Source of the DNA: Patescibacteria group bacterium
GTDB taxonomy: Bacteria; Patescibacteriota; Gracilibacteria; UM-FILTER-43-11
Assembly: GCA_018825145.1 (NCBI GenBank)
Contig: JAHJFD010000046.1
Coordinates: 1-36,254, forward strand
Length of the DNA stretch: 36,254 nucleotides
Reading direction: 5' to 3'
Shown here: positions 13,306 to 15,720 of the stretch, one piece after another
Layout of the letters: every line of letters starts with the position of its first letter
Position numbering within the stretch: position 1 is the first letter of the stretch
Made by a program: the position numbers and the translations under genes
The notes under the pieces: model-generated
The model's input: the letters and a program-made list of their open reading frames with translations, nothing else
Told to the model about the DNA's origin: nothing
Databases searched by the model: none

Positions 13306-13380
13306 ATGGGTCGGATGGTAAAACTACACTATTTATGGCAGTATGTCAAACTTGCGGTTTCGTTTTGCCGCATCCTGATT

Positions 13381-13386
13381 TATAAT
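13381..13386 (+). promoter_or_regulatory. -10 box of uvrC, predicted leaderless transcript
   Basis: A perfect TATAAT ends six bases before the uvrC ATG at 13393, so RNA would start at or within a base or two of the initiation codon. The -35 region (TTTCGT at 13358-13363, 17-base spacing) is poor. Confidence 0.5.
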
Positions 13387-13392
13387 CTTGTC

Positions 13393-15720
13393 ATGAATCC
13401 GAAGTTATCCAAGCTGGTTGCCAAATCGCCGACAGGCCCCGGAGTTTATAAGTTCCTCGATGAAAAAGGGACGGTTCTTTATGTAGGAAAGGCCAAGAGT
13501 CTGCGCAAGCGATTGCAGTCTTATGTGCGGCCATCTGCTAAACATGCCGTTAAAACCAAGTCGATGCTTGAGGCGGCGGAGTCGGTCGAGTGGGCTCTGA
13601 CCAATTCGGAACTGGAGGCGCTGATTCTGGAAGACAATCTTATCAAGGAGCTTCAGCCTAAGTACAACATTCTTTTTAAGGATGATAAGACTTTTCAGTA
13701 TATCAAGATCACGGTGCAGAAAGACTACCCTGAGGTGCTGACAGTCCGGCGGATCGAAAAAGACGGGGCCAAATACTTCGGCCCCAAAACCAGCGGGCTG
13801 GATGTGCAGAGAATCATGGAATCAGTACAGCGGATTTTTAAGTTATGCAGTCAACGAAACATCACCCTTGATCCTAAAGGTACCCCGATGCATGGTTCGA
13901 AAGTGGCGGTGAAGGTTGGCGGAGTGAGTTCCAAGCGTCCTTGTCTTGATTATCATATCAAGCGCTGCAGCGGCCCCTGCGTCGGTATGGTAACTCCCGG
14001 GGAATACGGCGTGCAGATTCAGGCGGCTATGAGATTTTTGTCGGGTGACTTCAAACCCGCGATTGAGTCGCTTAAAAAACAGATGCAGGATTTTGCGGTT
14101 TCTAAGAAGTTTGAAAGGGCGGCGGCCATGCGCGATCAGATCGCGGCCATCGAACGCTCTGCCCAGAAACAGATTATTACGGACACACTGCTGACAGATA
14201 GGGACGTGGTGGCGTATGTGGAAGATCTTGGTAAGAACTTTTTTGTTCTGTTCCAGATCCGCGGGGGTAAGCTGATTGCCCAGGAAAAGTTTATTTCCGA
14301 GGGAGGGGAGTCACCTGCCGAGGTCATGGAGGCGTTTTTGACTGATTATTATTCACGGGCGGCCGACATACCCAAAGAGGTGATTATTTCGATTGAAGTC
14401 GAAAATAAGAAAGTGATGGAGGACTATGTTTCGAGCCATACGGATCACAAGGTGAGGCTGATTGCCCCCAAGGCAGGTCATAAAGACAAGCTGATTGGGC
14501 TGGCCGAGAAGAATGCCCGCAGCTTTGCTCAACAATCGAGAGCGAGGTGGATGGCGGACGCGAAGGGCGAGCACGCGCTGGAGGATCTGGCAAAAGCTCT
14601 CAAACTCAGTGAGCCGCCAAAACGAATCGAATGTTACGACATCAGTCATTTGGGCGGCACGGAAACGATCGGAAGTATGGTGGTTTTCAAAAAAGGTGAA
14701 GCAGTTAAGGCTGAATATCGTCAGTTCCGACTTCGAAGTACAGCGTTTTTGAATGATGATTACAAGAGTTTGACTGAGGTGATGAACCGCCGACTGAATT
14801 ATTTGCCCGCCAAGCTTCCGGCTGAGTATGAAATTCGACAGGCGAGGAAGAAGGATTATGATTTTATTGAGAACATATGTATGACAGAGTCAATAAATCA
14901 TCATAACTTGGACGTTAAACAGTTTTATGTCGTAGAGAAGGCTAAAAAGATTGTCGGATTTTGCCGATTGGTAGCTTTAGATGAAAAAATAGATGATATT
15001 AGTTCACTTTGGGTAGACTCAAAGGAGCGAGGGGCGAAACTTGGTTATCACTTACTGCAGAAGGTCATATATTCATCAAAACATAAACGTGTTTATATGG
15101 ACTGCGTAAGACAGCTTAAGGATTATTATCTAAAATTTGGCTTTGAAGAAATCCATCAGCCTCCAAAACCACTTATAGATAAAATTGATCGTTTCAGGAA
15201 GGACAGTTGCGCTGTTAAAAAGGCTCAGAAAGCCCATGGTAAGGTTATTGATGTCGTTTACTTTGCCTACCAAAAAAAGAAGAAGGACTTATCTTTTACG
15301 TCGGTACCCGATCTGATTGTGATTGACGGTGGCAAGGGTCAGCTGGGAGCGGCGCACGATGTGCTGTTTAGCAAAGGGCTGAATATTCCGATGATCAGTT
15401 TAGCGAAGAAGCTCGAAGAGGTCTTCGTGCCGGGTCGGTCCGAGCCAATTGAACTTCCGGCCAATACAGAGGCCAGTTATCTTTTGCAGAGACTGAGGGA
15501 CGAGGCGCACCGTTTTGCGATTGAGGCGAACCGCGGATCTCGGGATAAAAGCATGACAAAATCGGCTCTCGATTCGATTCCGGGGCTCGGGCCAAAAGCC
15601 AAGAAAAAACTGCTGACCTATTTTGGCTCAGTTCACAAAATTCAGGAAGCTTCTCAGGTTCAGCTTGAGCAGGTGGTGGGCGAAAAACTGGCGGCCGGCA
15701 TTAAGACACATCTCGTTTGA
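13393..15720 (+). CDS. uvrC: UvrABC excinuclease subunit C with inserted GNAT-like domain
   Basis: UvrC makes both cuts around a lesion during nucleotide excision repair. The ATG at 13393 gives 775 residues and begins at the family's normal N-terminus; the frame is open further upstream but the extra residues do not fit. Domains in order: GIY-YIG nuclease (about 15-95, GVYKF and YVGKAKSLRKRL); Cys-rich region (PCLDYHIKRCSGPC); UvrB-binding UVR motif (about 222-257); RNase H-like nuclease with Asp416 in CYDISH, Asp645 in IDGGKGQ and His706 in EAHRF; C-terminal helix-hairpin-helix (SIPGLGPKAKKKLL). All expected catalytic residues are present. Residues about 474-632 are an extra block resembling a GNAT acetyltransferase (SSLWVDSKERGAKLGYHLL, then YYLKFGFEEI), placed between the two halves of the RNase H-like domain. 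Normal UvrC proteins are about 600 residues. The insert keeps the frame, so the gene looks functional. Confidence 0.95.
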   Translation: MNPKLSKLVAKSPTGPGVYKFLDEKGTVLYVGKAKSLRKRLQSYVRPSAKHAVKTKSMLEAAESVEWALTNSELEALILEDNLIKELQPKYNILFKDDKTFQYIKITVQKDYPEVLTVRRIEKDGAKYFGPKTSGLDVQRIMESVQRIFKLCSQRNITLDPKGTPMHGSKVAVKVGGVSSKRPCLDYHIKRCSGPCVGMVTPGEYGVQIQAAMRFLSGDFKPAIESLKKQMQDFAVSKKFERAAAMRDQIAAIERSAQKQIITDTLLTDRDVVAYVEDLGKNFFVLFQIRGGKLIAQEKFISEGGESPAEVMEAFLTDYYSRAADIPKEVIISIEVENKKVMEDYVSSHTDHKVRLIAPKAGHKDKLIGLAEKNARSFAQQSRARWMADAKGEHALEDLAKALKLSEPPKRIECYDISHLGGTETIGSMVVFKKGEAVKAEYRQFRLRSTAFLNDDYKSLTEVMNRRLNYLPAKLPAEYEIRQARKKDYDFIENICMTESINHHNLDVKQFYVVEKAKKIVGFCRLVALDEKIDDISSLWVDSKERGAKLGYHLLQKVIYSSKHKRVYMDCVRQLKDYYLKFGFEEIHQPPKPLIDKIDRFRKDSCAVKKAQKAHGKVIDVVYFAYQKKKKDLSFTSVPDLIVIDGGKGQLGAAHDVLFSKGLNIPMISLAKKLEEVFVPGRSEPIELPANTEASYLLQRLRDEAHRFAIEANRGSRDKSMTKSALDSIPGLGPKAKKKLLTYFGSVHKIQEASQVQLEQVVGEKLAAGIKTHLV

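Follow-up and report, generated by a model that had tools for sequence, protein, structure and literature searches.

UvrC, a near-universal bacterial repair protein, is treated as a nuclease of fixed architecture. The UvrC described here resembles known ones (TIGR00194; structures 2nrr/2nrt, 3c65, 8b0q and 1ycz) in having GIY-YIG, UVR, RNase H-like and helix-hairpin-helix (HhH) regions, as well as all catalytic residues, a single gene copy and a UvrB encoded in the same genome. It differs from them by a domain of 170 residues, placed in the loop that joins helix A of the RNase H-like domain to its catalytic strand; in the crystal construct from T. maritima, only a few residues lie at the equivalent place, between the matched stretches. 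The closest structural matches of this domain are the GNAT domains of N-acetylglutamate synthase (NAGS)/ArgA (2r8v, 5yo2 and 5yge; TM 0.63-0.69), with the CoA loop in a like position. Their sequence identity to it is, however, 13-19%, and the present domain is embedded in a nuclease. Glucosamine-6-phosphate N-acetyltransferase GNA1 (4ag7, 1i12) is a known enzyme that carries a Lys at position 4 of the R/QxxGxG loop, as the insert does, but it is free-standing and matches the insert weakly in sequence (E 0.002). Finally, the entry of unrelated domains and of repeat-flanked DUF559 elements into one loop, in frame, recalls domain-insertion hotspots and in-frame mobile palindromic elements; here, though, the target is a DNA-repair nuclease, and one domain type is found across most of a class. 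A survey of the GIY-YIG family from 2006 makes no mention of acetyltransferases (PMC1564403). Our full-text literature search found no description of an acetyltransferase insert in UvrC, which is not proof of absence.

The window, i.e. the whole stretch of 36,254 nucleotides that was analysed, lies on one contig of a Patescibacteria genome of 1.16 Mb in 67 contigs. Its open reading frame at 13306-15720 on the forward strand is identified as UvrC by TIGR00194 (E 2.5e-154) and is the only UvrC gene of the genome. Taking the second Met (13393) as the start gives a product of 775 residues, in agreement with relatives; all UvrC residue numbers below are counted from it. The profile match is full-length and the domains follow one another in the order expected for UvrC (Table 1). 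Residues D416, D645, H706, Y19, Y30, R40, E75 and N92 are all invariant among 50 UvrC sequences. The RNase H-like model PF08459 is nevertheless split in two, at 14593-14805 and 15253-15522, with GNAT models in between.

Table 1 Features of the window's uvrC gene and of its insert.
Feature	Position	Strand	Basis or remark
uvrC, 775 aa from second Met	13393..15720	+	ORF opens at 13306
GIY-YIG nuclease domain (3' incision)	13441..13668	+	PF01541; Tyr/Arg/Glu/Asn invariant, n=50 UvrCs
UVR motif (UvrB contact)	14062..14157	+	PF02151
RNase H-like domain, first part	14593..14796	+	PF08459 part 1
Catalytic Asp of CYDISH (D416)	codon 14638-14640	+	Invariant, n=50
GNAT acetyltransferase-like insert, ~170 aa	14797..15306	+	Pfam, alignment, AlphaFold pLDDT 92.6, Foldseek NAGS/ArgA
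Segment exchanged with L003-related donor	14961..15297	+	Statistical bounds; true exchange may span whole insert
Predicted acetyl-CoA pyrophosphate loop RGAKLG, R/Q-x-x-[K]-x-G	15028..15045	+	Sequence and conservation
Tyr at GNAT general-acid position, second Tyr of YYLKFGF	15127..15129	+	Y111, nearly invariant in alignment A4
RNase H-like domain, second part	15307..15522	+	PF08459 part 2
Catalytic Asp of IDGGKGQ (D645)	15325-15327	+	Invariant, n=50
Catalytic His of DEAHRFA (H706)	15508-15510	+	Invariant, n=50
Helix-hairpin-helix DNA-binding domain	15565..15705	+	PF14520

We located the insertion site in 144 UvrC proteins from the class and the phylum, 100 of them inserted and 44 uninserted. 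With flanks placed by profile, the insert always follows a helix ending in E-V-x-x-R-R-[LFM] and precedes P-D-L-I-x-I-D-G-G-K-G-Q; in the window, it sits between the RNase H helix ending in EVMNRRL and the catalytic strand PDLIVIDGGKGQ. The gap between the flanks measures 107-317 residues (median 161.5) in inserted proteins and 7-48 (median 15.5) in uninserted ones. This alignment upholds the surface-loop position that a sequence-only reading of the window had proposed, with one catalytic Asp segment of the RNase H-like domain on either side. The same reading had drawn the bounds at 14812-15288: the insert stands, but its exact ends do not, the alignment giving a slightly wider interval of about 14797-15306; as residues 474-632, counted from the second Met, the range was nearly exact. 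In the AlphaFold model of the whole protein (pLDDT 86.4) the RNase H fold is kept, and superposition with 2nrr yields a TM of 0.90 over 317 columns for 139 residues, i.e. around one long gap. The catalytic residues and the UvrC fold are thus preserved around the insert. In RNase H folds, the loop from helix A to strand 4 meets the strand at its N-terminal end, away from the Asp at the far end.

The insert is a real GNAT fold, as had been supposed from the sequence and as Pfam, AlphaFold and Foldseek all attest. Three GNAT models match it (PF13508, E 2.6e-9; PF00583, 6.2e-8; PF13673, 2.3e-7), with a best E-value of 2.6e-9 to 2.6e-10, and all 39 inserts of alignment A4 match GNAT families. Modelled in isolation, it is predicted with a pLDDT of 92.6 and a pTM of 0.85, its strands and helices in the order of a GNAT. 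The best Foldseek matches are acetyl-CoA-bound GNAT domains of NAGS/ArgA (E 5e-9 to 5e-8). Scores against the corresponding families fall well short of their cut-offs (NF003641, 20 against 344 bits; TIGR01890, 13 against 203; NF005840, 36 against 154; NF005921, 29 against 180), so we call the insert a GNAT and not an ArgA. At least two further GNAT genes occur in the genome, and the one in UvrC is therefore not the cell's sole GNAT.

Compared with the (Q/R)xxGx(G/A) motif, the RGAKLG loop keeps the first Arg and the last Gly, and its middle Gly is replaced by Lys, just as first read. The Lys is the norm of the family, present in 35 of the 57 intact loops, and the GNA1 structure 4ag7 reads RRQKLG with Lys at the same position; it is thus not a sign of decay, which rules out a GNAT degenerate on this account. 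The Tyr before GF in YYLKFGF is present, and Y111 is conserved in at least 90% of the alignment.

In a class-wide sample of 72 genomes with UvrC, read for the RNase H domain, 48 of the 55 that use the standard code and have the domain complete carry a domain-sized insert; none of the 16 whose UvrC contains in-frame TGA does. These TGA codons suggest that the class is the one to which Gracilibacteria and Absconditabacteria belong. The main GNAT family occupies the same site in 19 families, 18 of the class and one outside it (f27, with genomes G019 and G057); elsewhere outside the class, no domain-sized insert occurs at the site among the genomes searched. The scan of genome contigs for relatives covered close relatives, within Patescibacteria. 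Mapped onto a tree of the UvrC core with 134 rows, GNAT presence requires 7 changes, against 41 when shuffled. The simplest reading of this unrooted tree would be one ancient origin followed by several losses, which are seen in f4, f133, f140 and the code-25 families. A one-off foreign GNAT is ruled out by the class-wide occurrence. The sequence-only reading had also considered a misassembly at the edges of the insert, and an AT-rich block with sharp borders might well look like a GNAT gene misassembled into uvrC. As the origin of the insert this is ruled out, since a homologous domain lies in frame at the identical site in tens of independent assemblies.

The A/T-richness noted earlier is confirmed: GC content is 37% in the insert and 51% in the flanks, and GC3 is 38% against 58%, the largest gap of the 64 UvrCs measured. 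Part of this bias is general, as insert GC3 lies slightly below that of the flanks in 76% of copies. Compared with L039 and L042, of its own genus, the window UvrC shows 87% identity over the left flank and 82-89% over the right one, but 51-56% over the insert. The more distant L003, whose native GC3 is 30%, is 74% identical to it in the left flank, 73% in the insert and 75% in the right flank. The core data reject a clade of the window with L003 (AU p 3e-37) and the insert data reject one with L039 and L042 (p 1e-4); both clades were picked after the identities had been seen, so that the p values are optimistic and the effect size carries the point. Donor-like informative sites amount to 37 of 49 within the exchanged segment and 39 of 234 outside it, and the log-likelihood ratio for such a segment is 31.9, compared with at most 10.8 in 200 shuffles.

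The gene order around uvrC is common to L003, L005 and G301, which makes homologous recombination with an AT-rich relative the simplest account of how the window's GNAT was recently replaced by a homologous copy, in the direction from an L003-like donor to the window. Such an exchange accounts for the AT-richness of the insert. The proposal of a separate origin therefore survives in part: the odd composition is real and points to a recent replacement of one GNAT by another, but the one-off foreign block gives way to an apparently ancient, class-wide insertion. Could the exchanged copy, too, be an artefact of assembly? Donor and recipient flanks are only ~74% identical in protein, making a chimeric joining in a shared k-mer unlikely, and we regard misassembly of either kind as highly improbable.

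In relatives, the same loop holds other domains. That of L083 (G291:C66:17500-20900) contains a serine hydrolase (PF06821, 7.6e-12), an alpha/beta hydrolase with a THSIGG motif; that of L082 (G046:C14:62500-65900), a nucleotidyltransferase-like domain (PF10706, 1.7e-6); and that of L094 (G333:C60:7500-10800), a DUF559 nuclease domain in frame (1.2e-33). The DUF559 coding segment of L094 is flanked by 34-nt inverted repeats, 377 nt apart, and looks like an in-frame mobile element; the repeats, at 1023-1056 and 1434-1467, translate as LPLLLGEGGGE and SPHPDPLPEGEG. Pfam searches detect no DUF559 domain in the window's insert, ruling out an element of this type there. A second DUF559-like element, in frame and with similar repeat peptides, occurs in a different UvrC loop of L120 (G389:C1:77500-80400), where it precedes the PCLDFHIKKCSGPC region and the usual loop is empty. 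Short UvrC linkers of other Patescibacteria (L024, L026 and L111) also hold peptides, VIASEAKQS...RND among them, that resemble translated palindromic repeats and seem to have entered the usual loop in frame.

GNATs unlike the main family occupy the loop in L074, L092, L119, L121 and L122. Family f4 alone has a nucleotidyltransferase, DUF559 and two types of GNAT at the site, and in eight of its genomes no domain is present. Its GNATs score 11-45 bits against the main family, matching only the range of its eroded members, when most intact members score 100-208; profile-profile comparison (hhalign) aligns the middle only (probability 95.5), and the D-x-S-F tail common to the main family is missing. 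We therefore reject them as plain main-family members; they are probably separate acquisitions, although this is not proven. The f142 inserts, at first unlabelled, resemble the main family by profile comparison (probability 92.5) and are probably eroded GNATs, and those of f143 and f150 remain without a domain assignment. The 317-residue insert of L127 (G402:C23:2600-6300) contains a tandem of GNAT-like stretches, of which the second seems worn. No recognised domain was found in the UvrC inserts of L085 (163 residues) and L135 (115 residues). With such varied whole domains at one site, the loop accepts them repeatedly and is an insertion hotspot.

A permissive loop of this kind might simply collect passengers: domains that drop in, are tolerated and drift, with no role related to repair. 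The variety of its occupants, the losses listed above and the presence of eroding copies are consistent with this, but pure drift is argued against by the spread of the main family over 19 families, by the correlated retention of its motifs and by the purifying selection on the insert. In close pairs with intact inserts, dN/dS is 0.02-0.23, compared with 0.26-0.41 in eroded inserts where dS is unsaturated; the values are rough, with dS near saturation in many pairs. We consider mere passengers quite unlikely.

Loop and Tyr are both kept in 53 of 86 copies, both lost in 13, and one of them is lost in 20; they tend to be lost together (Fisher p 7e-5). Among 13 independent pairs with differing loop states, the Tyr changes along with the loop in an average of 6.0 pairs and in the opposite sense in 0.3 (median p 0.03). 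Such a pattern agrees with an enzyme that most lineages have kept and others have given up. A less probable, though conceivable, alternative is a pseudo-enzyme that transfers no acetyl group and whose GNAT fold would serve for docking or for sensing acetyl-CoA, either regulating UvrC or making contact with UvrB or DNA. Indeed, the domain is retained after loss of the loop in 28 of 83 copies, with at least 16 loop changes on the tree; many of these broken-loop copies, about one third in all, still have the length of a folded domain, and the insert evolves fast, its dN being mostly 1-7 times that of the UvrC core. Yet the CoA loop and the Tyr are kept in most copies and lost jointly, as expected of an enzyme.

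We now propose, with a probability of about 0.55, that the insert is a tethered acetyl-CoA-dependent acetyltransferase in UvrC, ancient, accessory to incision, partly decayed, lost or replaced, and exchanged in the window. The ancestral UvrC of this class of Patescibacteria would have gained a GNAT where helix A leads into the strand of the second catalytic Asp, in a loop that tolerates insertions; the nuclease would operate as usual around it. We infer that the GNAT would bind acetyl-CoA and, as a tethered N-acetyltransferase, modify a protein amine or a small amine that the repair complex would bring near; the sequence-only reading had thought of UvrC itself, UvrB or a lesion as targets. Most likely, it is a predicted acetyltransferase dispensable for incision. 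As an accessory activity outside incision, it could be left to decay, be lost or be replaced in some lineages; in that of the window, it was replaced, most simply through recombination with the homologous copy of an AT-rich relative. Since relatives carry other domain types in the loop, no GNAT-specific role in repair is required. More speculatively, and with considerable doubt on our part, the loop could be a modular docking slot in which different enzymes (a GNAT, serine hydrolase, nucleotidyltransferase or nuclease) have been installed and exchanged in the course of the history of the class. Each would lend the repair nuclease a second, tethered activity, in most cases dependent on acetyl-CoA, by which the repair machinery or the damaged site is modified.

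Altogether, the observation of a GNAT inside UvrC is confirmed, and its interpretation is partly supported and widened to an ancient clade-wide architecture, with a hotspot and a recent in-locus exchange. A class-wide acetyltransferase within the catalytic domain of UvrC would be a new architecture for this protein, and makes it directly testable whether nucleotide excision repair is linked to acetyl-CoA. Tags could be placed in UvrC at this permissive insertion site, and the intact, eroded, exchanged and lost copies form a natural series in which the persistence of inserted domains in reduced genomes can be studied.
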